Source: Meghimatium bilineatum (taxonomy: Eukaryota > Mollusca > Gastropoda > Stylommatophora > Philomycidae). From it: a stretch of DNA of 64,000 bases. Both the position numbers and the translations under genes were made by a program. Shown piece after piece: positions 3,001-40,800 of the stretch (positions are counted from its first letter, which is position 1; every line of letters begins with the position of its first letter). The stretch is from positions 4,939,001-5,003,000 of the forward strand of contig CM067312.1 of the NCBI GenBank assembly GCA_034231615.1. The letters are read 5' to 3'. The notes beneath the pieces were generated by a model. That model was not told where the DNA came from. It worked only from the letters and a program-made list of their open reading frames with translations, and ran no database searches.

Positions 3001-3745
3001 GATCTTGAGTAGAAGGTTGGTGAGTGGAATGCAAGGTCTGGTGTAGAGGTGGTGTGTCATGATCTTGAGTAGAAGGTTGGCGAGTGGAATGCAAGGTCTG
3101 GTGTAGAGGTGGTGTGTCATGATCTTGAGTAGAAGGTTGGTGAGTGGAATGCAAGGTCTGGTGTAGAGGTGGTGTGTCATGATCTAGAGTAGAAGGTTGG
3201 TGAGTGGAATGCAAGGTCTGGTGTAGAGGTGGTGTGTCATGATCTTGAGTAGAAGGTTGGTGAGTGGAATGCCAGGTCTGGTGTAGAGGTGGTGTGTCAT
3301 GATCTTGAGTAGAAGGTTGGTGAGTGGAATGCCAGGTCTGGTGTAGAGGTGGTGTGTCATGATCTTGAGTAGAAGGTTGGTGAGTGGAATGCAAGGTCTG
3401 GTGTAGAGGTGGTGTGTCATGATCTAGAGTAGAAGGTTGGTGAGTGGAATGCAAGGTCTGGTGTAGAGGTGGTGTGTCATGATCTTGAGTAGAAGGTTGG
3501 TGAGTGGAATGCCAGGTCTGGTGTAGAGGTGGTGTGTCATGATCTTGAGTAGAAGGTTGGTGAGTGGAATGCCAGGTCTGGTGTAGAGGTGGTGTTGTCA
3601 TGATCTTGAGTAGAAGGTTGGTGAGTGGAATGCAAGGTCTGGTGTAGAGGTGGTGTGTCATGATCTTGAGTAGAAGGTTGGTGAGTGGAATGCAAGGTCT
3701 GGTGTAGAGGTGGTGTGTCATGATCTTGAGTAGAAGATTGGTGAG
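1..3745. repeat. 60-bp satellite array, about 62 copies, derived from LINE endonuclease code
   Basis: Tandem units of exactly 60 bp, each beginning gatcttgagtagaaggttgg on the plus strand, run from the window edge to 3745. One extra T near 3595 shifts the register. Units differ at a few sites (ggttgg/ggtttg, gcaagg/gccagg, ggtgtg/tgtgtg/tatgtg). On the minus strand the unit matches 20 codons of the LINE endonuclease at 55490-55557 (SPTFYSR...TSTPDLAFY), but in that frame each unit carries a TGA, so it is not coding as such. Long open frames in other frames follow from 60 being divisible by three. The array continues directly into the rest of that LINE at 3746. Confidence 0.95.
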
Positions 3746-4591
3746 AATTATAAGTATGAGATTATTTTCATCCTGCCAGCTTTCAAGTTCCTTATCACTC
3801 TGATCGTAGCCCCAGCTCTGAGAGTGGCTGTTGAAGTCATCACACACAAGTCTCTCTTTTTCTGGGATTGTGTCTAGTGCCAATGGTCTATAATTTGGGC
3901 AGCAGTTCAGGAGATGGAATTCTGTACTGTTTGTCTTCAGGTGGAGCATCTGGTATTCTGCCCCCTCTATATATACTTGCAGCTGACATTGTTTTTAACA
4001 AGTGTCAGAATTCCACCCTTTCACCTATCCTTTTGATCAGATCGGTAGCACTGGTAGCCTCTGATTTTGAAGGCTATGTCGCTGCTGAGGTGTGTTTCTT
4101 GGATTCGGCATATATTAACTTGTTCTTCACTTAGGATATTTTAAAGTTTCAATTTTCTGCTGTATCCATCTCTTTTACTGTTGACACCCTCAGCATTCCA
4201 GTGCACTATTCTTATTGGTTGTTTATTTGTTTGGTTAGTAGCTCTATTCCCTTGCCTCCTGGTTTCTCGAAGCAATTGAGAAGAACTTCCAGTAACTGAG
4301 GTTGGACCTTCTTTCGAGGTATAGGGCCCGGCACCGTCCCTGCTTGAATGTCTGCCACAGGGCAGGTACCATAACTATTAATAAATACAGACATGTTTCC
4401 ATTGTGTTTTGTGCGTGGCAACCTGATTATTTGTGCGCCTTTTGCTGGTTGCCTCCGTCTTTAGCCCCATGCTTACTTGGTCAGGACTAAAGTCCTGCTA
4501 GAGTGAGACTGCCCAACCAGTCTTAGTTTCCACCCCCCGATGGCTGAACTAAGCCCCATCACCACTTCATGGTGCTGGCCTCGATGGGGGT
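3746..4591 (-). mobile_element. 5' part of a LINE copy (same family as the element at 52376-56431)
   Basis: This segment aligns throughout with 55558-56431: the 5' leader ending in ...cctcgatgggggt, the start MPRTKHNGNM of the open frame, and the endonuclease N-terminal half. It carries small indels and stops, so it is a dead copy. Its 5' end matches that of the other copy exactly. Its downstream (leftward) continuation is replaced by the 60-bp satellite at the point where the unit lies in the intact element. Confidence 0.9.
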
Positions 4592-10847: not shown

Positions 10848-13800
10848 CTGTAGACATAACACAAAATTCTATCAATCAACAGTAGACACTACATCAATTA
10901 TTCAACTATTTCATTGTGCCAAAAAAGCATGTGCTGAACCTGAAGACACAAAATAATGCAGCTCCACTGTGAAACCAGCAGCACAATGTACTTCAGGCTC
11001 TCCAGCAGAAAGCACACAAACTTTTACTTCGTGCTTCCCGGCAGAAAGCACACAAACTTTTACTTCGTGCTTCCCGGCAGAAAGCACACAAACTTTTACT
11101 TCGTGCTTCCCGGCAGAAAGCACACAAACTTTTACTTCAGGCTCTCCAGCAGAAAGCACACAAACTTTCACTTCAGGCTCTCCAGCAGAAAGCACACAAA
11201 CTTTTACTTCGTGCTTCCCGGCAGAAAGCACACAAACTTTTACTTCGTGCTTCCCGGCAGAAAGCACACAAACTTTCACTTCAGGCTCTCCAGCAGAAAG
11301 CACACAAACTTTTACTTCGTGCTTCCCGGCAGAAAGCACACAAACTTTCACTTCAGACTCTCCAGCAGAAAGCACACAAACTTTTACTTCGTGCTTCCTG
11401 GCAGAAAGCACACAAACTTTTACTTCAGATTCTCCAGCAGAAAGCACACAAACTTTCACTTCAGACTCTCCAGCAGAAAGCACACAAACTTTTACTTCAT
11501 GCTTCCCGGCAGAAAGCACACAAACTTTTACTTCAGACTCTCCAGCAGAAAGCACACAAACTTTCACTTCAGGCTCTCCAGCAGAAAGCACACAAACTTT
11601 TACTTCGTGCTTCCCGGCAGAAAGCACACAAACTTTTACTTCAGGCTCTCCAGCAGAAAGCACACAAACTTTTACTTCAGGCTCTCCAGCAGAAAGCACA
11701 CAAACTTTCACTTCAGGCTCTCCAGCAGAAAGCACACAAACTTTTACTTCGTGCTTCCCGGCAGAAAGCACACAAACTTTTACTTCAGACTCTCCAGCAG
11801 AAAGCACACAAACTTTCACTTCAGGCTCTCCAGCAGAAAGCACACAAACTTTTACTTCGTGCTTCCCGGCAGAAAGCACACAAACTTTTACTTCAGGCTC
11901 TCCAGCAGAAAGCACACAAACTTTTACTTCAGGCTCTCCAGCAGAAAGCACACAAACTTTTACTTCGTGCTTCCCGGCAGAAAGCACACAAACTTTCACT
12001 TCAGACTCTCCAGCAGAAAGCACACAAACTTTCACTTCAGGCTCTCCAGCAGAAAGCACACAAACTTTTACTTCGTGCTTCCCGGCAGAAAGCACACAAA
12101 CTTTTACTTCAGGCTCTCCAGCAGAAAGCACACAAACTTTTACTTCGTGCTTCCCGGCAGAAAGCACACAAACTTTTACTTCAGGCTTCCCGGCAGAAAG
12201 CACACAAACTTTTACTTCAGGCTCTCCAGCAGAAAGCACACAAACTTTTACTTCAGGCTCTCTGGCAGAAAGCACACAAACTTTTACTTCAGGCTCTCCA
12301 GCAGAAAGCACACAAACTTTTACTTCAGGCTCTCCAGCAGAAAGCACACAAACTTTTACTTCAGGCTCTCCAGCAGAAAGCACACAAACTTTTACTTCAG
12401 GCTCTCCAGCAGAAAGCACACAAACTTTTACTTCAGGCTCTCTGGCAGAAAGCACACAAACTTTTACTTCAGGCTCTCTGGCAGAAATCACACAAACTTT
12501 CACTTCAGGCTCTCCAGCAGAAAGCACACAAACTTTTACTTCCGGCTTTCCGGCAGAAGCACACAAACTTTCACTTCAGGCTCTCTGGCAGAAATCACAC
12601 AAACTTTTACTTTAGGCTCTCTCGCAGAAATCACACAAACTTTTACTTTAGGCTCTTTGGCAGAAAGCACACAAACTTTCACTTCAGGCTCTTTGGCAGA
12701 AAGCACACAAAGTTTTACTTTAGGCTCTCCAGCAAAAAGAACACAAACTTTCACTTCAGGCTCTCCAGCAAAAAGCACACAAACTTTCACTTCAGGCTCT
12801 CTGGCAGAAAGCACACAAACTTTTACTTCAGGCTCTCTGGCAGAAAGCACACAAACTTTTACTTTAGGCTCTTTGACAGAAAGCACACAAACTTTTACTT
12901 TAGGCTCTCCAGCAAAAAGCACACAAACTTTCACTTCAGGTTCTCCAGCAAAAAGCACACAAACTTTCACTTCAGGCTCTCTGGCAGAAATCACACAAAC
13001 TTTTACTTTAGGCTCTCTGGCAGCAAGCACACAAACTTTCACTTCAGGCTCTCTGGCAGAAAGCACACAAACTTTTACTTTAGGCTCTTTGGCAAGAAAT
13101 CATACAAACTTTTACTTTAGGCTCTCTGGCAGAAAGCACACAAACTTTTACTTTAGGCTCTCTGGCAGAAATCACACAAAATTTTACTTTAGGCTCTTTG
13201 GCAGAAAGCACACAAACTTTCACTTCAGGCTCTTTGGCAGAAAGCACACAAAGTTTTACTTTAGGCTCTCCAGCAAAAAGCACACAAACTTTCACTTCAG
13301 GCTCTCCAGCAAAAAGCACACAAACTTTCACTTCAGGCTCTCTGGCAGAAAGCACACAAACTTTTACTTCAGGCTCTCTGGCAGAAAGCACACAAACTTT
13401 TACTTTAGGCTCTCCGGCAGAAATCACACAAACGTTTACTTCAGAAGCTCTGGCAGAAATCACACAAACTTCATGAAGTTTATCAGTGAATGCAAAAGTA
13501 GATACTATTTCACAATTACATTTGGAAAGAACACAACAATGTAGACATGAGCATATGTATGTCATGCTTGATTCAGGAAACTCCTGACCCCATAGCTAAA
13601 AACCACCTCACAATAACATGGACTGAAGCTGTCATTCATTTGAATGTTCATTTAGGAAACTCCTGACCCCATAGCTAAAAACTACCTCACAATAACATGG
13701 ACTGAAGCTGTCATTCATTTGAATGTTCATTCCACATCTGATATCACAGAACAAATAAACAATAATGTTGAACTTTTGTTCAAAACTTATTGCCATCAAT

Positions 13801-16800: not shown

Positions 16801-19800
16801 GATGAATGACTGATAGTGAACAAGTGACTTAGAAACTATACTATGATGAATGACTGATGGTGAACAAGTGACTTAGAAACTATACTATGATGAATGACTT
16901 TTATAGGATGATACCAATGGATGATGTGGTTAGCATCCCAGCCACCGTCTTTACTTTCCCAAAAAAAAAAAAAAAAACTGTTATCCATTTCCTAAGGCTA
17001 GGTTGACCTAGGATAGATTGATGATTTAAAAATATTTCAGTTGACCAGAGAACTGAACCTTTGATGACTCAACCAGGAAGCCAGTGCACTCACTAAGTTA
17101 CTGCGTCCATCAAGAACACACTAATAATTTGTAAATAGTACCAGAATTTAAATAGATTATAAACATAAAAATATAACAGCATTCAAACCTGCTGGGCAAT
17201 GGGGCAGATCCTTTTTAGGTATAGCAGTGACCCGCTGGAACTCTTCATGACATGGGTTGCAAAAATGTGTCGTGCCGAAGCAGAAAAACACAGCTACAGA
17301 ACAGCAGTAACGACATTTATATTCTAGGAAGTCAGCTCCATGTTTGGCACACATCTGAGCTCGGGAGACATCGGAACAGGCTCCACAAACAAGTTCTGAT
17401 GGATCGAAGTCATCGTTTCCTCCGATAGCTTCATCACATCTGGCCTCACCTCCGTAGTAAGCCTGACAAAATATGACAAAATATATTAATTCCCCCGATA
17501 TCTTCATCAACTCTAGCCATATCTCCATAGTAAGCCTGAAAAAATATATGACAAAATATATTAGTTCCTCCAATATCTTCATCATATCTAGCCTGATCTC
17601 CATAGTAAGCTTTACAAAACATACTAGTTCCCTAAAGAATTGTGGAAGAAAACAATAGAAACAAATATAACAGAAAATAATACAGGGAAATCTGGTTGAA
17701 CTGATGGACTGACTGGTTGAGCTTACCTTCTTGCATTTGAAGCAAACGTAATAGGCATATCTTTCCATGGCAAATCCTGCTGGATCTTGGTAGAACCGAG
17801 CTCCTGGTGTGAGAATAGCTTCAGCTTTATCCAAACCTTCATATTCCAATCTCATCAGTGCTTTCCGTTTAACGTCTGCTTTCAAGTTTCGGATGGGTTC
17901 AAGCAGAGCTTTGAGAGCTGGATGGTCAATAGTGGTCTATAGAAGTCAAGAGACAGTGAAATATTATCAGTGTTTATTTTGTTGATGTGAAGATATAAGA
18001 CCTTTTTACTAGATTAATTATATATTATTTGTAAGAAGAATGATGAAAACTCCATGGACAGCCAAGAAAACTAATGTAGAAGTTCTCAAAGATGTTGGAG
18101 TAAAATGATAAATTATAGTGAAAATTAGACACAGACAATCAATTAGAAACAGGGCATATGATGAGCATAACTTGAAAAATGTCTGGATGGGTTGTCACTG
18201 TGGCACAAAAATGATGTCACCAACTGAACTTATTAACACGACTTCTTCTTCTTCTGCGTTCGTTCTGCAGATTAGCAGGATGTAGTCAGGAGAACAGAAT
18301 ACATTGTGTCATTGTTTACATAATTTCTGCGATATCTGTGCCTTTTGGCCTAACATATCTGACTTCAGCATGGTTTTGGGTCAGTGGCCCTATATGGGAC
18401 AGCCAACTCCATCCCATAACCTCCTTAGTCACCTCTTATGACATTCATGGAAGGTAAACAGTGTTGTTATTCTTTGCTCCCTTCTCAGGCTCTGGCAACA
18501 CACAGGCGATTAACAAGACAAGAGACAGAGTGTTGTGGAGAAGAGAAGAGAGTTGTGGAGAAGAGAAGAGACAGAGAGTTGTGGAGAAGAGAAGAGACAG
18601 AGAGTTGTGGAGAAGAGAAGAGACAGAGAGTTGTGGAGACGAGACAGAGAGTTGTGGAGAAGAGAAGAGACAGAGAGTTGTGGAGAAGAGAAGAGACAGA
18701 GAGTTGTGGAGAAGAGAAGAGACAGAGAGTTGTGGAGACGAGACAGAGAGTTGTGGAGAAGTATGATCACCTACTGCATTCAGTATATTGATTGATTGAA
18801 ATGTGTATATATTTGGATATTTTGTCATGGTCACGTTAGAGTAAGGATAGAACTGACCGACTCATTGTAAGATCCACGTGTCAGGGCAGATGACAGTGCA
18901 CAAGGGGATATTTTATATTCCTTATGTATGCATCTTTTGGACGAGGACACTGGTTGATAAGACTTGTTATGAGATTAAAATAGTTTGGAATTGCTTGGGA
19001 AGATTGTAGTGAGGGACTTATTTTGGAATTTCCTTGGGAAGATTGTAGTGAGGGACTTATTTTGGAATTTCTTGGGAAGATTGTATTGAGGGACTTAGTT
19101 TGGAATTTCTTGGGAAGATTGTAGTGAGGGACTCTTTCGAGATAAGATGAGGAAAATAGACAATCAACAGGCTACGGGAACAGTCAGCATACGTATGCTC
19201 TGCCATCTGGTGAATGAGATGAAACTCTTATCAGGATGCCTGGAGTGTACTGCAGTCAGTTCATAACATCACTAACCACTAATCTAACCACAGGTTATAG
19301 TCTGCATTACAGTTTAACCAACTTGACTATACACCGTGTTCATTGATAGATAGATTTTTGATAATATTAAATTCTTGAAGGACATAACACAAACATTATT
19401 ATGTTCTTTGCGAAATACACTCTTTATTCTGTCATCTTGTATTTGTACCTGGCTCATGGCTGGCAGCGAGAAAGGACTTCAATAACTTACTTCTAAATTG
19501 AAAAAAACTTGTAAAATTTACGGTATGAAAATAAACATTGAGAAAAGTAAAAATAATGGCAAACAGAGATGCCAGAACAGTTAACATGTGAGTGACTGGA
19601 TAGACACTAGAAGTTGATACCTTGAAATACTTATGATCTTATATGAGCAGCGATGGAAGGACTAACAAAGAAATAAATATTAGACTTGGAATAGACTCTG
19701 CTGCAATGTCCAGATTAAATACCATGTGGAAGAACAGAATACAGTAGTGAAAATAAACCTATATAAATCTCTTAATAATACCTATTCTTTTTTACAGACG

Positions 19801-22800
19801 TGAGAGTTGGATAATTACAGCAGAAATGGAGAGGAGAATATAGGATTTTGAAAATGAATGATACAGATGAATATTACGTATTCATTATACAGAACACAAA
19901 ACCAACATATATGTGAAAAGCAAAATAAATACTCTTGCAGATAAACAAGAACATTGCATGACTGTGATGAGGTGTCGCAACAAACTTGTGTAGTTTGGCC
20001 ACATGACGAGTCACAATTCTCTTTCCAAAAATTTCTTGTGGGGAACAGTTGAAGGTCGAAGAAGAAGAGGAGGCCAGAGGAAAGTATGGATTGGCAATAT
20101 TAAAGACTGGACAGGATTCGGATTCTCCACACTCAAACAAAGAACTGATAACAAGTAGGCGAGGAAATATTTTTGTGTTTCCAGAGTGACACCCATACGA
20201 CACTGAAGGGTTATGGGTTTGATGATGATATGCAGGTGTTTAGGGCAAGGAGAGAGCAGACTGTCTGGCAAGCACTACTACTGTAGTGAATGCTAGAGCA
20301 ATAACTGATATAATGAACTCCTTACGAAAAACAGCACAGATATAATTAATGATGTGGGCAATTCGTTTTCTGTGTTCTGAAGGTAGGATCATCATAATGT
20401 GCAGTGCCTCATGGCACAGGTGATCATTGAACTCCACAACAACTCTATCTGCCATAGTGTGTCAGCTCTACTACTGTGCCACGATGTTAAACTATCCAGT
20501 CTCTTCACTCTTTATCAGCACATCTCAGGTTGTTGATGTTGTGTACATCTATAACCAAGATGTAGTGTCATCAGCACATCTCAGGTTAGTGATGTTGTGT
20601 ACACCTATAAACAAGATGGGGGTATCATCATCATATCTCAGGTTGTTGATGTTATGTACAGCTACAACCACTATGAACAACTTGGTAAAGGGCAAAATCC
20701 CACAAAAAAATATAGCATATAACCCCACTGACGAGGAGACTTCTCAAAGTCTTGTAAACACTATGAGACAGTTTTTCTCCGAGTATGAAAGAAAGTTGGG
20801 CATGAGATCCCAATGCACATAACAAACACAATCAACATACTAGCTTCACAAGTTCTGGGATCAATAACTTCAGAAAAACATACCTTGCATATTGGACATA
20901 ATGAGAATCCAAAGGTGATGCGAGCTCCCACATATCTCTTGGCCAGCACCATTTTAGTACAGTGTAGATGAAATACATGAGAACAGGACAGCTGTGGATA
21001 TCAAACAAAACATGAGAACAGGACAGCTGTGGATATCAAACAAAACATGAGAACAGGACAGCTGTGGATATCAAACAAAACATGAGAACAGGACAGCTGT
21101 GGATATCAAACAAAACATGAGAACAGGACAGCTGTGGATATCAAACAAAACATGAGAACAGGACAGCTGTGGATATCAAACAAAACATGAGAACAGGACA
21201 GCTGTGGACATCAAACAAAACATGAGAACAGGACAGCTGTGGATATCAAACAAAACATGAGAACAGGACAGCTGTGGATATCAAACAAAACATGAGAACA
21301 AGACAGCTGTGGATATCAAACAAAACATGAGAACAGGACAGCTGTGGATATCAAACAAAACATGAGAACAAGACAGCTGTGGATATCAAACAAAACATGA
21401 GAACAGGACAGCTGTGGATATCAAACAAAACATGAGAACAGGACAGCTGTGGATATCAAACAAAACATGAGAACAGGACAGCTGTGGATATCAAACAAAA
21501 CATGAGAACAAGACAGCTGTGGATATCAAACAAAACATGAGAACAGGACAGCTGTGGATATCAAACAAAACATGAGAACAGGACAGCTGTGGATATCAAA
21601 CAAAACATGAGAACAGGACAGCTGTGGATATCAAACAAAACATGAGAACAGGACAGCTGTGGATATCAAACAAAACATGAGAACAGGACAGCTGTGGATA
21701 TCAAACAAAACATGAGAACAAGACAGCTGTGGATATCAAACAAAACATGAGAACAGGACAGCTGTGGATATCAAACAAAACATGAGAACAGGACAGCTGT
21801 GGATATCAAACAAAACATGAGAACAAGACAGCTGTGGATATCAAACAAAACATGAGAACAGGACAGCTGTGGATATCAAACACATGATAACATGAAAGCT
21901 GTGGATATCTACACAACATATGAGAATATGACAGCTGTGGATATCAACCACATGATAACATGACAGCTGTGGATATCAACCACATGATAACATGACAGCT
22001 GTGGATATCAAACACAAACATTATTAGAACTCGCTAACATTATCATATCCCCAAGCACTAACTATCCCCAAGCACACAAGATACTAAACTATCCCCAAGC
22101 ACTAACTATCCCCAAGCACACAAGATACTAAACTATCCCCAAGCACTAACTATCCCCAAGCACTAACTATCCCCAAGCACACAAGATACTAAACTATCCC
22201 CAAGCACTAACTATCCCCAAGCACTAACTATCCCCAAGCACACAAGATACTAAACTATCCCCAAGCACTAACTATCCCCAAGCACTAACTATCCCCAAGC
22301 ACACAAGATACTAAACTTCTACAACCTTCTGTATTCTCAATCATACATACACTTTTCTCTCTCCCATATTACCTCTGTGATACAAGATCTCTCATTCATC
22401 TGTGATACAAGATCTCTCATTCATCTCTGTGATACAAGCTCTATCAGATCCTATCACTTTTCTTCTTTTGAACTCTGTCTCCCTATCACATTTTTTAAAT
22501 TTTTCATTCTAATGAATGTTATATGCAATATAATTGTTCATTTAGTATGATATTTGTGATAATAAATATATATATTTGTGATGACAAGTATGATATTTGT
22601 GATAAGTATATTTGTGATAAGTATATTTGTGATAAGTATATTTGTGATAAGTATATTTGTGATAAGTATATTTGTGATAAGTATATTTGTGATAATAAGT
22701 ATGATATTTGTGATAAGTATGATATTTGTGATGATAAGTATGATGAGTGTGACATTATTTTCTTGTTTTATATTTTCTTATTTAGTTTTAAAGCAGTCCA

Positions 22801-25800
22801 TGTCATGTATTGCATTGTTCTTAGGAACTATTTTATTGTTGATGGAAGTAAATCTTCTATGTTATTGTCCATGTTTCATTAGTATAAATCTATGATCGCA
22901 CTACATAAATTTATTGAAATTTTTTTAGTAGGAACAGAGAATGCATAGTAGATGACAAAACAGACTGATGTTTTTATCAAAAGGGCTTAATCACATGTTT
23001 ACTGAAGTCTTACATATTATCGATCAAATGGCCTCTATTGACGAAAACATATTGCACAGTATATTCTTCATTTGTATGAATGCTGTATATTCCTGCCCTA
23101 TTCTCTTTCTTATCTTTGTTGAACTTCTTCCACCTGATTTCATTGTTTTTCCTAAAATTTGAATTGATGGGCCTGTTTGATTTACGATCATACACCTGTA
23201 AATTACCTGCACAGCTGGAGCAGCCGCCAAAGCTTCAGTGAAACAGATCATGCACATATCATCTGCATCTTGCTTAAGTCGCTCCTGATCTACTGGTCGG
23301 CATTGGTGTAGACAGGGCAAGCATGATTCCTCTCCTGCTATACCACCACAGAGATGGCCACAGTTCAACACTTTTGTACAAGCATTCCTGGAGAACTCCT
23401 GTAGTCAAAGTTATAATTAGTGGATAAATCATGACACACATATCACAGACATCTAGACAGACACAAGCAAGCTCTAACTACTACCAAATATCTAGTCACA
23501 TCTAACTACTGTCAAATATCTAGTATCTAGACACATCTAACTACTGTCAAATACCTGGTACCTAGATACAAGAAAGCTCTAACTACTGTCAAATATCTAG
23601 TATCTAGTATCTGGACTTCATTTGTTAGGTTTTTGATTATTATCCAACATGGTGGAGAATGTTTTAGTAACAAATTGTCAGAGGATATCCAACATGGTGG
23701 AGAATACATCAGTAACAAACTGTCATAGGATATCTGACAAGGTGGAGAGTGTCTCAGTAACAAACTGTCAGAGGATATCCAACATGGTGGAGAATACATC
23801 AGTAACAAACTGTCAGAGGATATCCAACATGGTGGAGAATACATCAGTAACAAACTGTCAGAGGATATCCAACATGGTGGAGAATACATCAGTAACAAAC
23901 TGTCAGAGGATATCTGACAAGGTGGAGAGTGTATCAGTAACAAAAATATGAAGTGATAACATCAATGACAATGTATTATTGACACTGATTACTAATATGA
24001 CCACAAAAAAAATTAATCAGGGTTGTGATTTCTCTCCAGTCACGACCGCTCCTCAAATCGAGATCCAGCTGTAAATGGGTACCTTACGCATGAATTGGGA
24101 GGTGTAGACACAGCAAGGAAGGTAAATTCCACCACATCTAATAGTTGCTGCTGATTAGGACATGAGTTACTTTCATCCCCCACAGCAGGATACTGCCATG
24201 TGACCTACCTTTACCGTTTTACTAATATTACTAATAAATAACAGAAATACAAAATGTAAAATCAATGAGAAATAACTTTAATCAAGAAACAATCATGAAC
24301 TAGAAATAAATAGAACAAATCAATGCAATCATTACAATGGGGGATGGTTTGAAAGTTGCATCCAATTATATTTTAAGAAAAAAAATAACCTTCCAATTGT
24401 ATTGATTGCAATGTTTTTGTTTTTTCCTAGTGTCTTCACATTTGGTATTTTTTGCCATTAAGTGTTACATTAGTAATCAGTGACAATAATACATTATCAT
24501 AGGTGTTACATAATTCAACATTTTCAAACAAAACATTTACCTTGTAAACCTCTAAAATATATATATCTTATAATCAAAATAATCTGAAAAATCAATCTTA
24601 CCTGGCAATCTGCCTCAGAGCAGACATTTCCAATAGCTAATAGACCAGTGTTGCTAGTCTGGCCACAAAAGCGACATGTGCCAGGTCCTATTGTTGCATT
24701 AGAAACTTTGCCTGGAATTTGTAGTGAAAATGAAATAGCTTAGAGATTTCTTCTATAAGAGCTATAGAAGTCACATTACAAATAGAAACAGCATATAAGA
24801 GACAAGCGAATTCAAAAGCAATAATACAATTAACAATTAAATGTGTATATCGGCAATGTCTGTGTTCAGTTTGCGAGTTATAATTCACAACAAGATATCC
24901 TACTGTTAGGAAGAGATGTCACTAAGAGACGCAAGTGACGTGTACGACAGGAAAGTGAAAATAAATTATACGTAATGGGATAGAGTTCTGAGAAGTTGCA
25001 TATCAGTGAGGAATCAATCAATAAATGTAGAAGCAGTAGAGTCGTGGTATTGTAGAAGAATGCTGAGAACACCATAGACAAATATAGAGCTCTCAGAAAA
25101 TATTTAGGTATAGTTCAATGTTAAAAGTGTACTGCTCACCCGTAACAGAAGAAGACAGGATCAAATACTTTGGACATGTCATGAGAAGCAGAAAGAACAT
25201 ATTGTAACAACAGCTGTCTTGATAAAGATCATTTGGTTGAAATGTTGATTTGTTCTATTATAACTATCTGTGAAATGTATTTAAACCTTTTTTTATTTAA
25301 AAAAAAATATACTGATCTACTGTGTATGGTATACGGTTTTACTGCAATCTCCCACTCCTTCTGTTATACATCATCCAATACACACCACCCAGTACAATCC
25401 ATCCAATACACACCATCTAACATAATACATCCAATACACACCATCTAACATAATACATCCAATACACACCATCTAATACAATCCATCCAATACACACCAT
25501 CTAACACAATCAATCTAATGCACGCATTCTAACACAGCCCCCTGTAACACACACCATCAACCTGTGTAATACACACTATCTCCACCATCTATAGATACCC
25601 AATCACCTGATTTCATTTCAAACAAACATTGATAGACACCAACCTTCTCTGAACTCAACCATTGCCTTGAATGTCCTAGAGTCAACCAGTGACATGACCC
25701 AGAACAGTTTGATACGCCCACATCCCTCATGTAGATCAACTTTGATAGCTTCCTCTTCCTCTTTGAATACCTGACAATAAAGAGATTTGCTGTCAGAAAT

Positions 25801-28800
25801 GCTACCTTATACATCTTTTCAAGTAAAGAGATTTTCTGTCAGAAATGCTACCTTATACATCTTTTTAAGTAAAGAGATTTGCAGTCAAAAAGGCTACCTC
25901 ATACATATTAAGTAAAGAGATTTGCTGTCAGAAAGGCTACCGTATACATCTTTTCAGGTGACTACAAATCAGAAAACGTAAATAAATTGACCACATTATT
26001 GATAAACAATCGCCGGTGTGTTTTGGGACCTGAAAGGAAAGCAACAAACTGATACTATAACTTACCGTGGACGTAATAAAAAAACTTAGAGGTTTGCAAG
26101 AAGTTTCTTGTCCATTCCATTCCAATGAGGGTCAAAGCAATGAAAAATTCATGCTAAAGTTGGGTGTGTCAGACTGAAAGGTGCAGATATCACAGCAAGC
26201 TGTAACAAGGCTGACAGAGTTTAGTCATTTCATGGCACTGCTTCCCAAATTTTACCATTTCAAATGTCGCTTGTCATGAAATTGATATTGTGGTCATCTT
26301 TGTATTTTTGGTCACAAATTAAAAGTTTAGCCATATCTGACCAGAATTGATCTATCAAAAATGTCAACTACCCGACAACCATAAACTGTTCAGACACAAA
26401 CAACCCATTCCATCCTCTGGACTACATCCTGTTAATCTGCAGGAGCTTAAGAATGAGTGCAGAGGAAGAAGAATACAGTTGATATTAATGATAAAAATAG
26501 CAAGACATGAACTTGATTGGAATACACAGAGTATAAAAGGTTTTAAAAAAGGAAAGTTTCCCCCCCATTGAGGAGTATTGGGGGAATAACTTCTTCCAGT
26601 TTGAGACAGTTGAACCAGATGTTTGTGGGAGTATTGGAGGAATAAATTCTTCCAGTTTGAGACAGTTGAACCAGATGTTTGTGGGAGTATTGGAGGAATA
26701 AATTCTTCCAGTTTGAGACAGTTGAACCAGATGTTTGTGAGAGTATTGGGGGAATAAATTCTTCCAGTTTGAGACAGTTGAACCAGATGTTTGTGGGAGT
26801 ATTGGGGGAATAAATTCTTCCAGTTTGAGACAGTTGAACCAGATGTTTGTGGGAGTATTGGGGGAATAAATTCTTCCAGTTTGAGACAGTTGAATCAGAT
26901 GTTTGTGGGAGTATTGGGGGAATAAATTCTTCCAGTTTGAGACAGTTGAACCAGATGTTTGTGAGAGTATTGGAGGAATAAATTCTTCCAGTTTGAGACA
27001 GTTGAACCAGATGTTTGTGAGAGTATTGGGGGAATAAATTCTTCCAGTTTGAGACAGTTGAACCAGATGTTTGTGGGAGTATTGGGGGAATAAATTCTTC
27101 CAGTTTGAGACAGTTGAACCAGATGTTTGTGGGAGTATTGGGGGAATAACTTCTTCCAGTTTGAGACAGTTGAACCAGATGTTTGTGGGAGTATTGGAGG
27201 AATAAATTCTTCCAGTTTGAGACAGTTGAACCAGATGTTTGTGGGAGTATTGGGGGAATAAATTCTTCCAGTTTGAGACAGTTGAACCAGATGTTTGTGG
27301 GAGTATTGGGGGAATAACTTCTTCCAATTTGAGACAGTTGAACCAGATGTTTGTGGGAGTATTGGGGGAATAACTTCTTCCAGTTTGAGACAGTTGAACC
27401 AGATGTTTGTGAGAGTATTGGGGGAATAACTTCTTCCAGTTTGAGACAGTTGAACCAGATGTTTGTGGGAGTATTGGGGGAATAAATTCTTCCAGTTTGA
27501 GACAGTTGAACCAGATGTTTGTGGGAGTATTGGAGGAATAAATTCTTCCAGTTTGAGACAGTTGAACCAGATGTTTGTGGGAGTATTGGGGGAATAAATT
27601 CTTCCAGTTTGAGACAGTTGAACCAGATGTTTGTGAGAGTATTGGGGGAATAAATTCTTCCAGTTTGAGACAGTTGAACCAGATGTTTGTGGGAGTATTG
27701 GGGGAATAAATTCTTCCAGTTTGAGACAGTTGAACCAGATGTTTGTGGGAGTATTGGGGGAATAAATTCTTCCAGTTTGAGACAGTTGAACCAGATGTTT
27801 GTGGGAGTATTGGGGGAATAAATTCTTCCAGATTGAGACAGTTGAACCAGATGTTTGTGGGAGTATTGGGGGAATAACTTCTTCCAGTTTGAGACAGTTG
27901 AACCAGATGTTTGTGGGGTCTAGCTTCATATCACTAGTCAGCAAACATTTTGCTTTTATCAACAATGACATTGTTTGTATGTGCAGCTTGTCTATGCATG
28001 AGAGTGATCATTTTATATAAACAGAAAGACTAATAACTCACCTGTCTCTGATGTCCCCTCATTCGTCGCGGCAGGTGCAAGAAACGATCACATTCTGCAC
28101 AAAGGTTTCCACAGTCGGAGCATAAGATGATAGCCGGTGTTATAGAGTCGTCATGATTGTCACAGGTAGGCTGGGGAAGATGTCAAACAATAAGTATAAA
28201 CAACTGCTGGCTGATACAGGTAGACTGGGAGAGATGTCAGATTGTTACAGGTAGACTGGGAGAGATGTCAGATTGTTACAGGTAGACTGGGAGAGATGTC
28301 AGATTGTTACAGGTAGACTGGGAGAGATGTCAGATTGTTACAGGTAGACTGGGAGAGATGTCAGATTGTTACAGGTAGACTGGGAGAGATGTCGGATTGT
28401 TACAGGTAGACTGGGAGAGATGATAAATACAAACGTCTTGTATGTTACATGTAGGATGAGGAGATCAACAAAGTTGAACACTTAAGACACAAGATTATGA
28501 AAGAAACGGGCTTAAATGGTTGGAATATTATGTTTATCTTTTTGTTTTGAGAGTTACACAAAATCCACATGCCTGCACACTTTGTTATGAGCCTGCACAC
28601 TTTGTTATGATGGCATTCCAAGCTAGGAATGTGTATTCCTGTCATAGTCACACCCACCTCCATATCTAGTCATCAACCAGGAGAATAGTTAGTGCTAGAG
28701 TATCCTACTCAGGACATAATGATCAAGGAAGCATATTTTGATCGTAATTATTTTCTATGTACTATAAATATGTTCAGTAGGTTGCAATTGCTTTCTGAAT

Positions 28801-31800
28801 GGTCTGAATGCACAGTTGCCTGCTGCAGGGTTTGTAACCTGGTAAATGAATCTGAATCTGCTCTCTGTACTACTTTGCCATAGAGTCAGACCAACCATAA
28901 ATACACTACTCTCTGACACAGAGTCAGACCAACCATGAATACACTACTCTCTGTACTACTCTGACACAGAGCCAGACCAATCATGACTATGCTAACAAAA
29001 TAAAGTTTTTTTGTAATCATAAATAGAAAATAAATGTTTTGTCTGTGGCTATGTGGATAGCTTCAGCAATAAAAATGTCAAACATGTTTGACTGAAGTTA
29101 GCTTTATGGTTGTTATCCAGCACAGGAACCAGTTCTCTCGTACGGCTGCTCTACTAGCAATGCGGTTACAGAAATTTACTGTTGAGTGCAAGTGGCAAAA
29201 CACTGATGTGGGCATTAGATACCATACCAAAATTGTATGTGTTGGGCCATTGGTGCAAATAAACAGCAACCAAACGTATTTCTGTTTGCTGTATATAACT
29301 GTATATGAATTGTGCACAAGTATAAATGTGCATCAATTGGTAAGTAAATATAGAACAAAATATAAAATGGATTCAATAGCAGTTCGACATGGAAAAATAC
29401 ACAGAATCAATATGTGGACAAAAAGATAAGGTCAAATATAGAAGAATGGAACCATAAAATCAAGTGAAGACATACATGACAGTGATGTGGAAATTGACAG
29501 GTCAGGAATTTAAAAAAATTGAAGAGTAATGGGAATGTGATTGATTAAATTTATAGAAAGTACAGTACCAAAACAAAAACAAAAACAAAAAAACAAAACA
29601 AAATAGCAAACAAAAGTATAAACAATGATAGTAAAATAAAACTCTCATCTGGATAAAGTGTGAATAGAAAAACTGGGATTAAAAGCAGTTTTACATTGTT
29701 ATCTGTAGACTGGGGAAGATATTATGTTACAGGTAGACTGGGGAAGATATTATGTTACAGGTAGACTGGGGAAGATATTATGTTACAGGTAGACTGGGGA
29801 AGATATTATGTTACAGGTAGACTGGGGAAGATATTATGTTACAAGTAGACTTGGGAAGATATTATGTTACAGGTAGACTTGGGAAGATATTATGTTACAG
29901 GTAGACTGGGGAAGATATTATGTTACAGGTAGACTGGGGAAGATATTATGTTACAGGTAGACTGGGGAAGATATTATGTTACAAGTAGACTTGGGAAGAT
30001 ATTATGTTACAGGTAGACTGGGGAAGATGGTAATTCAATTCTGTGTGTTGTATGTCTCTATAATGGTAAAGATCTGTTTGGTCAAAACGTCACTTCTGTG
30101 TACTGTTCCACAAGTAAAGCTACTATTAAACCCTTTTTACATATTTATAATCAAGGACATGGTTAAACATTCTCAAATGTCTCTTGTCCATCATTGTCTT
30201 GGGTTGAATCCTTTACCCTGGTTGTGAAGATACAGACATACAAAATGTTTGAGGTGACTAGATGACCCCTACCCTTGGCTGACCGTGCTGGTGATCTGAA
30301 CTAGACATCCACTCTCCTGATGACAGACGGTCAACATGGTCCTGGTCCAGCACACACAAGGAAGCCAAGGCAAGCCAAAGCTAAATAAAATACACAAATA
30401 TCATGACATTTGTCATTTAACAAAAAATACATGTGATAAATTTATTTGGATATATAACTTATAAAAAAATTATAATAACAGATTTATAAAATATACACCT
30501 GGACAGGTTTCTTACTTCATTTCTCTGTAGCTATCCCATCCCATATAGGGTCAGTGACCCTGACCCAAAGCCATGCTGAAGTCGGATGCGTCAGGCCAAA
30601 AGACGCAGATATCGCAGCAATGCTGTAAACCATGACACAACGCATTCCATTTTCTGGATTACATCCTGCTAATCTGCAGGAGTTTGAGAATGAATGCAAA
30701 AGAAGAAGAAAAAAGAGATGGAAATACTACAGACAACACAACTCAATCTGCTGAAATACTACAGACAACACAACTCAATCTGCTGAAATACTACAGACAA
30801 CACAACTCAATCTGCTGAAAAGGAGTGTTTTATCAATGACATACAGTAGTACACGTTTTATTCCAGATACCACTGTCCCTAACAAAGCTGGAATTCCAAC
30901 AGTTTTGATGCTGTCACAGATTCATTGATTAGGTCATGTGGACACAGTGGTACGTATAACAGAGCATACACTACCAAAGATACTTCTCTATAGTAAGTTG
31001 CAAATGGGCATATATTCTCAAGGTGGTCAAAAGAAGCGTTACAAGGACTCCTTAATAATAATAATAATACTAATAAACCCATAACCTGTCGAGGTTGTAG
31101 GGGTGTCACAAGGAGACATTTGGTACAGAAAGATCTACACGCATTTCTATCCTCTATCATCTTGATAAGTTTGTAAACTTCACACCCTGTCCATTCATTA
31201 ATATTATCCAGCCATGTCTTCTTCTGGCCACATTGTCTGCTTTCTCCCTCCACTGTACCTTCAAAAATATCTTGTCATCGAAGCATGTGTCATCACGTGC
31301 CTGTATCATCGGAGTTTACGAAGTTTGACAATTGTCAACAGTAGTTCTTGTTGCCCAGCTAATGAATTAATTTTATCATGTACAAAAACATTGGTCTTAT
31401 GTTCTCAATAACAGATACCCAACACAGGTCCTTAACATTTGTTTTCAAATGCCTGGATTCTTCTCTCTAAATCTGCTGTTAAAGTCCAGACCTCACAACC
31501 ATATAGAAATATTGATTGACAAAACCAAAGATTTATATAAGTTGATCTTAACACGGTCTGTGATCCTGCTTTTCCAAATGGTGGTTAATCTTTTCATGGT
31601 GACCATGGTCTTTGCCAGTCGTTTCTTAACTTCAGCTGTTGATTCACCATTGCCACTAATCTGGTCTCCAAGATACGTAAACATAGAAACCTCCTCCAAC
31701 CTTTGATTGTTCAGCTTTATATTGGTTGGAACAAAGTGAGTACTTCTATTCACCAATATTTACTCTTATCTGCATTGATCTCCACACCAAGTTTTTTGCT

Positions 31801-34800: not shown

Positions 34801-37800
34801 GCTGTGATGCTGGTGCCTAATCAAGAATCAAGTCAAATTATGGAGTACTTGTGTCATGATGAACTTAGCTTGCAGAGTTTTCCGAATATGGAGATATATA
34901 ACCACAAATTATGATTTTAATTCTAAATTTAATTGTGTCACAACACACCTTTTAGAGTTTTCCTAACACTATTTAGGTAATACCTCAATGAACTCACATG
35001 ACAGATACTTCCAAACACAAATACTTCAATACACTCACCTGGCAGTGTCTTCCAAACACTGAGATAAGGTCAAGGTGGTGCTGACCTTGCTAGGTCCTGT
35101 ACTCTTGATCTTCATCTGAACACTTAGAGCTTTGGCAATGCATGCCAGGAACACATCAAGGATGCCTGGGACTTCTGGATCAAATGTTGATCCCTCCTCT
35201 GAGGCTCCAACAATATTGTAATCTGGAGGAGGCAGGCTTGGTATTGATAAAATTGTGGCTAGCAGTTGAGGTTTGACCCAAGGCAGCACACGTCGGAATA
35301 TTGTGGTGATCTATCAAAAACATGAGAACAGATACAACATTTCTGAGAGATACAGACACATCCATGTCTACAAAAAAAAAGATAATATAATATATGAGAG
35401 ATATAGACACATCCATGCCATGTCTAAAAAAATTACATATATATATAAACCCAAGAATCAAAGTTGTATCAAAAAGAATCAGAATAAAAAAAGGAAGGAG
35501 TGCTGAAACTGAAAATATTTACTTTAACAATGTCCCTGCTGCAGATGACTTTTGTTATCCATGAATATTACATTTTTTGTGGGGAATTTTGCTGATTCTA
35601 CACTGGTATTTTTTTTGGTGCAGGAATTTCATTGTCATTCCAATAGAGCGGTGTCCATTATTGGATTAATTCAATATCAATAATTATATTTAATTTTGTT
35701 ATTGTTGTGACGACATGTTATCTAGCGGCGGATTGCATGATACCATGGTTGCTGGTGCACCTCTCGGCCTGGTACCTCTGAATTCCATATCAGTGATTGC
35801 TTCGGTAGGACTGTGGTCCAGCTCAATGTCGGGGATGGCCCGACCAATCTTAATTTCCAGGCTCTGTTGGCTGGACTAAACCTCATATCCACTTCAAGGA
35901 GTTGGCCTCAATGAGGGGAATTTTCATGATTTTATATAATTTTGTCAAAATTCCTCTACATCAAAATTCTTCCTGTGTATGTCGCTGTGTCTGCTATGGC
36001 AAAGCATCCTTTATTTTCATAGCCCATAGAAAACCTCCCTGCACACGTTGACATGGAAACATGCAGTAATGAATATAATGTTTTTCAATGAATATTTCAG
36101 AATGGATGTTTTATACCTGATGATCCCAGATTCAAAGTGACTCGGATTCAAATTTTGTAGAGAGTAAGTGATAAATGGGACTCAGAATCAGATAGAGAAT
36201 TTTACTATGATTCAAGTAATGACTCATAGATTGATAGGAGATAGTTCTGTGGGTCCTGGAACAAGCAATTGACACACACAAAACTGCAGAGTGACACTGC
36301 CGTTGCTTGACAAAATTATTCTTAATATAAAAAGAAATTAAAACTTTTCGATAAAAGTTTGTGATTATGATTTTGGAAAGTTTTTTTTGGTCTGAATGGC
36401 ATGTGAAAGTTTATTCTTGGTCTGAATGGCATGTGAAAGTTTCAAAGCCATATTTCAAAGTGTTAGTTGATTTTTAAATGATTTCTTAAATCTCACAAAA
36501 CTAATCATTCTTAAAAACGTAGAAAGACTTGGCATAAAAATGTGTGGCAGCGAAAGTATTCAAGTGAATAGCTAAAAGCTATGATGTGCCATGTAGGTCC
36601 CATGGCAGAAACCTGCCGTCGGGGATGATGATAACTCTTCATGCACTAAGCCACAACAACTAATAGGTGCGGTGGCCAGTTCCCTTCCTTGCAATGTTTA
36701 CCTTCCACAACCCATGTTAAGTACGCATTTACAATTGGGTCAACTGGAGGAACATTAGTGTAAGGAGAAAAATCATGTGTCGGATGTGACAGTATGAAGT
36801 TTTGAAATTTAACTATCATGCTTCTTGCAATAATTCAATGGCAATGCTGAATACATTTGCAGGAATTTCTCTAGGTATGGTTCATGCTTTATGTTTAATT
36901 AATTCACCAAAGAAGTTCTATAACTTATTCAATCTAAGGATCGGTCAGGCATAAATCTTGGCAGTTATCACACAGCTCCTGTTAGCGTAACTGTGAACCA
37001 CAACTTAAACTTTGACTGAGCCTGTTATTTAACAAATCTGATATGATATCACTGTGGAAGGAATAATAATCTTGCTAGAGATTGGTTAATTGTACTACTT
37101 TCAATCCTGTCACTTCAATTCTTCTTTTGATTTCAGCTGCACATTTTCATGTTATCAATGTTTTTATACTTTCTTCTGACCTCTTCTTCTTTCACCCTCA
37201 ACTGTTCTTTGTAGGATAGTTAGGAAAAGGAATCATGCCTATCCCTGAGACCACATCACACAAGTTTGAGATATCTCATCACTGAGACCACATCACACAA
37301 GTTTGAGATATCTCATCACTGAGACCACATCACACAAGTTTGAGATATCTCATCCCTGAGACCACATCACACAAGTTTGAGATATCTCATCACTGAGACC
37401 ACATCACACAAGTTTGAGATATCTCATCACTGAGACCACATCACACAAGTTTGAGATATCTCATCACTGAGACCACATCACACAAGTTTGAGATATCTCA
37501 TCACTGAGACCACATCACACAAGTTTGAGATATCTCATCACTGAGACCACATCACACAAGTTTGAGATATCTCATCCCTGAGACCACATCACACAAGTTT
37601 GAGATATCTCATCACTGAGACCACATCACACAAGTTTGAGATATCTCATCACTGAGACCACATCACACAAGTTTGAGATATCTCATCACTGAGAGATTTT
37701 TACTTTAAATAACACAAAGACTAAGTAGAAGATAAGCTTCTCTGTGCTTATGTTCACTCATCAGCAGGTGCCATGCTAACTGGCATAGGTAATCATGGAT

Positions 37801-40800
37801 CTGCACAACTCTCTATTTTCAATATCTTTTATCAGGATTGTTGTCACTTCTTTACCATGCCACAATTGTCAACCTATCTAATATTTTCTCACATTGTCGT
37901 CTTCGATTTCATTTACCTGTAACTATGTTCTCCAGACTTCCCTGACTCACAACAGGTCCAAAAAATAAATATTGTCTCTTTTATGTTCACTACACAGAAA
38001 TAAAAATAAGAACTGCCATCAAGAGAAACAAAATGTCAGTTTATCTAACCTGTCTTTGAATTCTAGGAGTTGCAGTGTGTAGCAGACTGAACAAGTCTTG
38101 TATAAGGGGGCACTGCTGGGCCAAGTACTTTCTGCCCACAGAGGATCCACTCAGGGCCACCACCATTGAGACAAGCTCAAAGCAGTACACGTCAGATCCG
38201 TGCATTTCCACCGAGGCTGTTGCTTGTAGCAGTGAGTGTTCCCATTCTTCTTTCATCTTGGCTGCTTCTTTCCTGATGCCCTGGACAATGTGGTTGCACA
38301 CCTATGACAAAAATGTTCACAGTAAATCTATGATAAAATGTTCACAGTAAATCTATGATAAAATGTTCACAGTAAATCTATGATAAAATGTTCACAGTAA
38401 ATCTATGATAAAATGTTCACAGTAAATCTATGATAAAATGTTCACAGTAAATCTATGATAAAATGTTCACAGTAAATCTCACATATTTACATCGTACACT
38501 ATGTGAATGACTTACACTCATGACATTCTCTGTACAACCTAATCATGATATGCCCCAACAAAACATTTTTTTTCAATAAAAATAAAGTCCATGCCTTATT
38601 TTATTATTTAAAATAGTAAAATGTCCAACCATACTTTGTGTTATATAAAATAGTAAAATGCCAACCATACTTTGTGTTATATAAAATAGTAAAATGCCCA
38701 ACCATACTTTGTGTTATATAAAATAGTAAAATGCCCAACCATACTTTGTGTTATATAAAATAGTAAAATGCCCAACCATACTTTGTGTTATATAAAATAG
38801 TAAAATGTCCAACCATACTTTGTGTTATATAAAATAGTAAAATGCCCAACCATACTTTGTGTTATATAAAATAGTAAAATGCCCAACCATACTTTGTGTT
38901 ATATAAAATAGTAAAATGCCCAACCATACTTTGTGTTATATAAAATAGTAAAATGTCCAACCATACTTTGTGTTATATAAAATAGTAAAATGTCCAACTA
39001 TACTTTGTGTTATATAAAATAGTAAAATGTCCAACCATACTTCAGTATCTTCAGTTATTTTATTTGTGCACAATTGAAAAAAAACACCTTGTTTTTTTTT
39101 CTTTCTCCGAAGAAATGAATACCATGCACATTTGTGATATGACATTTCTGACACATTCAAATAATCAAATATCCAATAACAGAACATCCCATTGATGTGT
39201 ATCTAGCTGAAATAAAATGTGGGTAAGTAAAATTAAAAAAGTAAAGTAACCCATAGCATTTATTAATGCCGTAGGGGTGTGAGATGTTAGCGATCTCACA
39301 TTTCAGAAGCTCTGCAAATGAGGGCGGTAAGCCGTCTCCTCTCCCTCGTAGTCGTTACAAACCGGATTAATCTGGTACCCATTTAAAGGTGGGTTGACCC
39401 GGGAACCATTGCAATCTAAAAATACATTTCCGACTTAACTGGGAAATGAACCCAGGATCACTCATATGCAAAGCCAGTGCGCTAACGCAGCTCCCTAGAT
39501 GTGGGTACTTTATATTGAATACCAAGATACATTGTTGGAATCCATCTGCACGTAAATTATCAACCCACCTATGGCGTATAAATTTCATGCAATAGTTGAA
39601 TTACTGTAAATTATATTCTTTAAGAAAAAAAAAACATTATCTCTTAGGAAAGGAAGTTCTCAATGTAAGGAAATTGCAATAAAGGCTGATTTTAAAATTA
39701 CACAATAATGGAAGCATGAAAAATGCAAGATTGCTTGCAAAAATCCATGTTAATGACAGGTTATGAAGATATGAAATTAAGTGAAGCAACAGGTATTGTG
39801 AAAGAAACTATAGTTCACAATCGCAAGACTTGAACTCAGGACTTCTGTATGAAAAATTAGTGCAATGTTGAACTATGACACATACATACTAATCTATTTG
39901 TCTTGTAGATTTGTTAAAGTGTTATTTATTATTATTACTTAATGTCATGTAGACCTGATGGTTAGTGCAGCACAAAGGCCTGACTGTCTGTGCTTGATTT
40001 GCTCAAGTACATAATTTTTCTATTACTATGAAAAAACTACAGACACCAAAGTTGAGACATGACAAATAACATGGACAAACCTGTCTCTGCATGTGAGAAA
40101 GCTTGCTGCGGCTGAATAGAATGCTGACCATGTGCTCCTTCAGGTCATTATCTCCATCAACTTTATCTTTGTCCTCCCTCTTGTCATCATCTGTCTCACT
40201 ATCTTCTGGACTAGTCACGAGCTTGCCAAACACCTAACACAAGCAACAATAGTTATTGTATTTGATACAACAAAGTCAAACATCTAACACAAGCAACAAT
40301 AGTAAATGTATTTGATACAACACCGACAAACACCTAACACAAGGAACAATAGTAAATGTATTTGATACAACACTACCAAACATCTAACACAAGCAACAAT
40401 AGTAAATGTATTTGATACAACACAGACAAACACCTAACACAAGGAACAATAGTAAATGTATTTGATACAACACTGCCAAACACCTAACACAAGGAACAAT
40501 AGTAAATGTATTTGATACAACACAGACAAACACCTAACACAAGGAACAATAGTAAATGTATTTGATACAACACTGCCAAACACCTAACACAAGGAACAAT
40601 ATTAAATGTATTTGATACAACAAAGTCAAACATCTAACATAAGCAACAATAGTAAATGTATTTGATACAACACTGCCAAACACCTAACACAAGGAACAAT
40701 AGTAAATGTATTTGATACACTGAATTGCTGTTGGTTGGTTGCTGATTCAGTGGCCCATGTTCCTATGCCCTTTGACCCAATGCCATTGCGTGAGTGATGT

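Follow-up and report, generated by a model that had tools for sequence, protein, structure and literature searches.

Introduction

Minisatellite-like duplications of intron–exon boundaries, named "mirages," have been reported in lancelets (PMC3087553; PMC3902484). According to these reports, mirages are known in the globin genes BflGb6 and BflGb9 (PMC3087553), to which PGBD5 and troponin C have been added (PMC3902484). The BflGb6 mirage is described as having units of 150–160 bp that are repeated 6 times in one haplotype and 3 times in the other, with 81–100% identity (PMC3087553), and the Adh3 mirage, as cited in the lancelet mirage papers, as having units of 10–72 bp (Canestro et al. 2002). 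Length instability between haplotypes or cells is a further trait of the mirage type. Regular splicing is, per both lancelet papers, seemingly not disturbed by mirages (PMC3087553; PMC3902484). In humans, the 31-bp VNTR of CBS, c.1444_1467+7(16_21), is reported to cover a donor (PMC2630376), and the VNTR in intron 18 of ABCA7, which has a 25-bp unit with a splice site and about 12 to 427 copies, is reported to yield a frameshifted isoform through retention of one unit (PMC5954066).

Here, we analyze 64,000 nucleotides of DNA from the gastropod Meghimatium bilineatum (this whole stretch is hereafter called the window), in which the RING exon of MYCBP2, exon 18, is preceded by a tandem array of its own acceptor. 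Like the lancelet mirages as described, this array is made of tandem boundary-spanning copies whose units hold splice signals and exon sequence; mirages are reported to comprise both acceptor and donor types and to have a homogenized interior, cluster boundaries excluded, to which the exon 18 array can be likened. Unlike the mirages reported for BflGb6 and Adh3, the array combines a 35-bp unit with 30 acceptors, belongs to a gastropod, and is one of several in the same gene. With the CBS VNTR it shares a short boundary unit (for CBS, judged by its coordinates), a comparable length and copy number (16–21 in CBS), a fixed period, and single-base variants, although the CBS VNTR, as reported, duplicates a donor and not an acceptor. 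The ABCA7 VNTR likewise has a short unit including a splice site; in contrast to the exon 18 array, it is described as lying on the donor side, as starting at the GT without exon sequence, and as having a demonstrated splicing effect, when the exon 18 array is known from sequence alone. The sequence-only reading that preceded this work knew of no described minisatellite built from a conserved splice acceptor on this scale; a lack of precedent for the kind is not upheld, given the acceptor-type array of six units reported among lancelet mirages. By title and start of abstract in open-licence literature, we found neither an acceptor-type array this long nor any boundary minisatellite in a mollusc; as far as searched, the novelty thus lies in how long this acceptor-type array is and in the grouping of several arrays within one gene, the Adh3 mirage being compared by its cited unit size.

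The choice of a 3′ splice site among near-identical neighbors has mostly been studied with few artificial copies. The array offers a natural test of this choice, with 29 decoys before a RING exon that carry zero to nine mismatches over 36 bases, and further natural cases with other unit lengths are found within MYCBP2. A mollusc thereby joins lancelets and the two human donor cases as a carrier of boundary minisatellites, and the acceptor–donor asymmetry of repeats described below is testable genome-wide.

The MYCBP2 Gene Model

MYCBP2 (PAM/Highwire) is an E3 ligase of the RCR type, whose C-terminal half is encoded on the minus strand of the window. We placed 21 exons by tblastn with fetched relatives, proteins of Lottia, Solemya, and Batillaria among them, and set the GT/AG borders of exons 3 to 21 by hand from frame and homology, which gave a single reading frame with zero internal stops through these exons; the placement of the exon 2 donor (61012) is less certain than that of the other borders. 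The 262-aa joined product of exons 17 to 20 matches the human MYCBP2 structure 5o6c (E 2.2e-121) and also aligns with the human MYCBP2 structure 6t7f, and PF13639 (zf-RING_2) scored above its cut-off in it. The exon and gene structure that had been proposed from the letters alone is therefore corroborated by both frame and homology. The exons that surround the array are as follows:

23207..23398, minus strand: exon 17, joined to exon 18 in phase 0
20884..20991, minus strand: exon 18, RING (LSCSHVFHLHC...CPICK), donor gtatgt (placed by frame and homology)
17727..17936, minus strand: exon 19

The first 16 bases of exon 18 encode the C-x-H pair of the RING, which is identical in 5o6c and conserved in seven fetched MYCBP2 relatives.

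Anatomy of the Exon 18 Acceptor Array

Upstream of exon 18 (20991..20884, minus strand), its own acceptor is repeated in 29 further tandem copies, so that intron 17 holds 30 CCACAG acceptors with exon-start positions from 21998 to 20991; each acceptor leads into an exon-start copy, and the authentic one is the last. The array has two parts:

20992..21866, minus strand: 25 in-register 35-bp units, each with ...CCACAG ahead of the next exon-start copy CTGTCCTGTTCTCATG
21867..22015, minus strand: four diverged distal copies, acceptors 21898, 21934, 21966, and 21998

The 35-bp unit includes a 14-bp acceptor block and 16 bp of exon 18, as the sequence-only reading had described it, with the codons of the C-x-H pair inside. 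The 25 nearest upstream acceptors are spaced by exactly 35 bp and their units have a mean pairwise identity of 98.8% (19 of the 25 equal the consensus), and the four distal units, which measure 32, 32, 36, and 32 bp counted from the distal end, carry more base changes than these. The earlier count of about 26 copies agrees with the in-register set when the authentic site is included and falls short of the total, which amounts to 30 acceptors, TRF giving 30.1 copies with 96% matches. Over 36 bases (20 intronic and 16 exonic), the authentic site is matched in full by 18 of the 29 upstream copies, 6/29 differ from it by one base, and 5/29 by three to nine; the five copies adjoining the exon are among the identical ones and the five most distal are those with three to nine differences. 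The minus strand of the window contains 29 occurrences of the block GATATCCACAG, the plus strand none. When the −20..+12 boundary of exon 18 was searched in intron 17, it was found at 32/32, with 28 sites at 24/32 or better, the best of 5 shuffles reaching 20/32, and the boundary copies thus exceed chance.

The array consists of near-identical tandem units that lie across the gene's own intron–exon boundary, exon part included, and that hold usable-looking splice signals (as judged by PWM score and a yUnAy motif), which are features of mirage-type arrays. On the donor side, the boundary of donor 17 finds at best a 17/32 match in intron 17 and the array unit contains no splice donor, which sets it apart from the donor type known from CBS and ABCA7. 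The distal flank and the exon start share no significant seed microhomology (P 0.146 against 2000 shuffles). Two further arrays, of the TATCCCCAAGCACTAAC family and the ATATTTGTGATAAGT family, lie upstream of the acceptor array in intron 17, at 22046–22317 and 22544–22744.

Splice Signals and Consequences of Upstream Acceptor Use

We scored acceptors with a PWM that covers positions −20..+3 and was built from the other 20 MYCBP2 acceptors. By leave-one-out score, the exon 18 acceptor ranks fourth of 21; within intron 17, 23 upstream copies tie with it and one scores higher, when the best AG outside the array reaches 4.3 against 8.4 at the authentic site. Both the sequence identity of the 18 copies and these 23 ties bear out the idea that the array is a series of near-identical potential 3′ splice sites. 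Candidate branch points could be proposed at both ends of the array, from motif only:

21013, minus strand: TTCTCAT, with the candidate branch-point A for the authentic acceptor, 21 nt from the exon
22024, minus strand: TTCTAAT, with the candidate branch-point A for the most distal acceptor, 25 nt from the copy

The candidate yUnAy motif TTCTCAT belongs to the consensus unit and, for the authentic acceptor, lies in the part of the last upstream copy that derives from the exon. The distal TTCTAAT is closer to UACUAAC than TTCTCAT is, and the candidate at 22024 is possibly the ancestral branch point. One possibility would be that the ancestral branch point was displaced by ~1 kb as the array grew, duplicated exon sequence replacing it.

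In conceptual splicing, all 29 upstream acceptors lead to a premature stop and hence to the loss of the RING frame, as the sequence-only reading had anticipated, and the three-unit extension of 105 nt does meet an in-frame TGA. Its statement that any upstream copy adds a multiple of 35 nt holds for the 25 in-register acceptors and fails for the four distal ones, whose extensions are 1007, 975, 943, and 907 nt. By our estimate, chance alone would put a premature stop in most extensions of such length, and the stops at all 29 sites are therefore not evidence of design. The array was also considered as a coding exon and rejected as such, its unit not being a multiple of 3 and a TGA occurring within about three units.

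Boundary Repeats at Other MYCBP2 Exons

We scanned positions −20..+12 of 21 acceptors against the upstream intron and positions −12..+20 of 20 donors against the downstream intron, with 5 shuffles per boundary, the maximum of which was 20/32 for acceptors and 21/32 for donors. Boundary copies of at least 24/32 were found at 4 of the 21 acceptors (exon 8, 29/32; exon 14, 25/32; exon 18, 32/32; exon 20, 25/32) and at 0 of the 20 donors scanned over their downstream introns. The acceptors of exons 19 (22/32) and 21 (21/32), slightly over the shuffles, were dropped for having only 7/12 exonic bases matching. The arrays at the other exons are:

40225..40719, minus strand: exon 8 acceptor array, 50-bp unit, 9.9 copies, 9 exonic bases inside (exon 40233..40081)
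38302..38479, minus strand: exon 9 array, 25-bp unit, 7.1 copies, ending exactly at the acceptor (exon 38301..38050)
34979..35059, minus strand: exon 10 donor, diverged duplication of 41 bp, 2 copies (exon 35310..35039)
29705..30028, minus strand: second array with the exon 14 boundary motif, in the same intron as the next, 28-bp unit, 11.6 copies
28215..28422, minus strand: exon 14 array, 31-bp unit, 6.7 copies, acceptor and exon-start copies (exon 28170..28042)
17417..17610, minus strand: exon 20 acceptor array, 73–75-bp unit, 2.6 copies (exon 17462..17189)

The exon 9 array holds seven 25-bp copies of the acceptor without exon sequence, which the scan missed through a one-base length difference, and the duplication at donor 10 has a boundary match of 23/32 and 80% identity. 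At exon 14, the edge of the 31-bp array lies 45 nt from the exon, and the best single boundary copy (25/32) sits in the 28-bp array; the presence of the exon 14 boundary in both arrays of one intron suggests either repeated capture or the drift of an old array that was split. As at exon 18, use of upstream sites would mostly be unproductive, premature stops being found for 9/9 sites at exon 8, 6/6 at exon 9, and 7/7 proximal and 9/9 pattern-matched distal sites at exon 14; at exon 20, one of the two upstream sites gives a premature stop and the other adds 147 nt in frame. Boundary copies at exons 8, 14, and 20, together with the acceptor-only array of exon 9, point to a recurrent process and not to a device of the RING exon.

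Asymmetry of Repeats between Acceptors and Donors

The distribution of repeats around splice sites was examined with two measures, exon 18 being left out at the acceptors and the thresholds being our own choice in the small sample that a single gene provides. Against a null in which TRF arrays were placed at random with at most 50 exonic bases covered, an array lies within 50 nt of 8/20 acceptors (null 1.96, P 0.0008) and of 1/20 donors (null 1.96, P 0.88), and within 10 nt of 4/20 acceptors (null 1.13, P 0.019). By a TRF-independent measure of local repeats, mean coverage in the 50 nt before acceptors is 0.226 versus 0.257 at random intronic positions (P 0.62), coverage being 0.000 (P 0.0002) in the first 50 nt downstream of donors and 0.03 at 51–100 nt from them; the duplication at donor 10, with its 80% identity, escapes this stricter measure. 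Permutation of acceptor and donor labels in the TRF-independent measure gave P 0.0013. By both measures, then, repeats are commoner near acceptors than near donors. We reject an enrichment at acceptors as such, since TRF-independent coverage before them does not exceed the intronic background; the safer reading of the asymmetry is a depletion after donors, with acceptors at background.

Probable Origin and Tolerance of the Array

We consider it probable that the array is a mirage-type minisatellite that grew passively and is tolerated because exon definition picks the acceptor closest to the exon. A short segment astride the acceptor between intron 17 and exon 18 would have been duplicated in tandem, and the array would then have expanded through ordinary minisatellite turnover, its last copy staying joined to the real exon, so that it would be a functionally neutral passenger. 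Exon 18 would be defined through a pairing between its donor and the closest acceptor, which lies 108 nt away, and the 29 upstream acceptors would stay intronic; their occasional use would yield stop-containing mRNA, presumably removed by nonsense-mediated decay. In favor of such a passenger, the unit includes MYCBP2's own exon start, the copies diverge from the authentic site at the distal end and match it next to the exon, boundary copies recur at other exons, merged TRF arrays make up 29% of the window, lancelet mirages are reported to leave regular splicing undisturbed (PMC3087553; PMC3902484), and local repeats at acceptors are close to background density, which fits tolerance there. Three considerations go against it: 23 upstream copies tie with the authentic site in score, one exceeds it, and they are transcribed before it, so that mis-splicing would be predicted from simple kinetics; exon definition alone, which should protect both sides of an exon alike, leaves the scarcity of repeats downstream of donors unexplained; and the donor-type VNTR of ABCA7, reported to yield one-unit retention, indicates that such arrays are not always silent.

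A bolder and more doubtful proposal, which we advance tentatively, is that this lineage tolerates acceptor duplications so well that a single gene could come to have its boundary copied at four acceptors and, at a fifth, an array of the acceptor by itself, with the 50 to 100 nt after its donors nearly repeat-free. Proximal choice would then be nearly error-proof or, failing this, the array would be a decoy-based dosage device for MYCBP2 tuned by its length. If this were general, minisatellites and new intron boundaries would arise continually from splice acceptors in molluscs.

Dosage control as an explanation of the exon 18 array itself, with upstream acceptors used appreciably, stop-bearing mRNAs produced, and copy number setting the amount of MYCBP2, appears unlikely to us. 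It would accord with the premature stop at every one of the 29 upstream sites, with the 24/29 of these sites that score at or above the authentic acceptor, and with the precedent of ABCA7, in which a splice-site VNTR is reported to give a frameshifted one-unit isoform and its length to affect splicing (PMC5954066); however, stops of this kind would arise by chance in most extensions of such length, and lancelet mirages are reported without aberrant mRNAs (PMC3087553; PMC3902484).

Selection of the last acceptor might also be aided by RNA structure, if the ACAG|CTGT palindrome at the splice junction let interior copies pair with one another and if the terminal copy, having no downstream partner, remained more open. 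With a folding window of 150 and a span of 100, the last four bases of the intron have a predicted probability of being unpaired of 0.085 in the authentic acceptor, versus a median of 0.0022 in the 25 in-register copies, all of which are less open than the authentic site in 6/6 window settings, and a terminal/interior ratio of at least 38 was reached by 2 of 100 shuffled-unit arrays. Yet the predicted contrast falls to about 6-fold at a folding window of 300, at windows 70 and 300 the authentic site is matched or exceeded in openness by one distal copy of the four, 7/100 shuffled-unit arrays reach the low interior accessibility alone, and all of this is computed on naked RNA. Among the other arrays, only that of exon 14 agrees, exons 8 and 9 having no consistent contrast and exon 20 a reversed one, and we thus reject the idea that occlusion by RNA generally operates in arrays of this kind. 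As the explanation of acceptor choice it seems to us very unlikely; pairing of interior copies may be an aid at exon 18, one that lacks generality and depends on the folding window chosen. Inflation or collapse of copy number during assembly of this repeat-rich region is highly improbable as an account of the array, for although tandem repeats are prone to such errors and one haplotype of the BflGb6 mirage is reported as aberrantly assembled in the lancelet draft (PMC3087553), single-base variants are scattered over the array and its distal edge has diverged, other exons have similar arrays with different units, and a copy-number error would leave the feature itself standing.

Other Repeats in the Window

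An array of 62 copies of a 60-bp unit (1–3745) lies inside a LINE copy: its doubled unit shares 92.6% identity over 68 bases with the LINE at 52–57 kb, and its flank (3746–4400) has 87% identity to the continuation of that LINE. This arrangement suggests the birth of a minisatellite in situ from formerly unique sequence, and to that extent supports the kind of origin that we favor for the array of exon 18. The LINE at 52–57 kb (reverse transcriptase frame 52412–55270, minus strand) is itself flanked by two arrays of the same 36-bp unit, at 52085–52376 and 56433–56651, and may either have inserted into a minisatellite or bear 36-bp arrays at its ends. Among the at least 120 relatives listed for a LINE in the window, the organisms that are named are all gastropods (Littorina, Bradybaena, and Batillaria), which points to a gastropod as the probable source. 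In the last MYCBP2 intron, finally, 69 copies of a 36-bp unit (10989–13471) contain open frames of 866 aa on the plus strand and 554 aa on the minus strand, which owe their length to a unit that is a multiple of 3 and are probably not genes.
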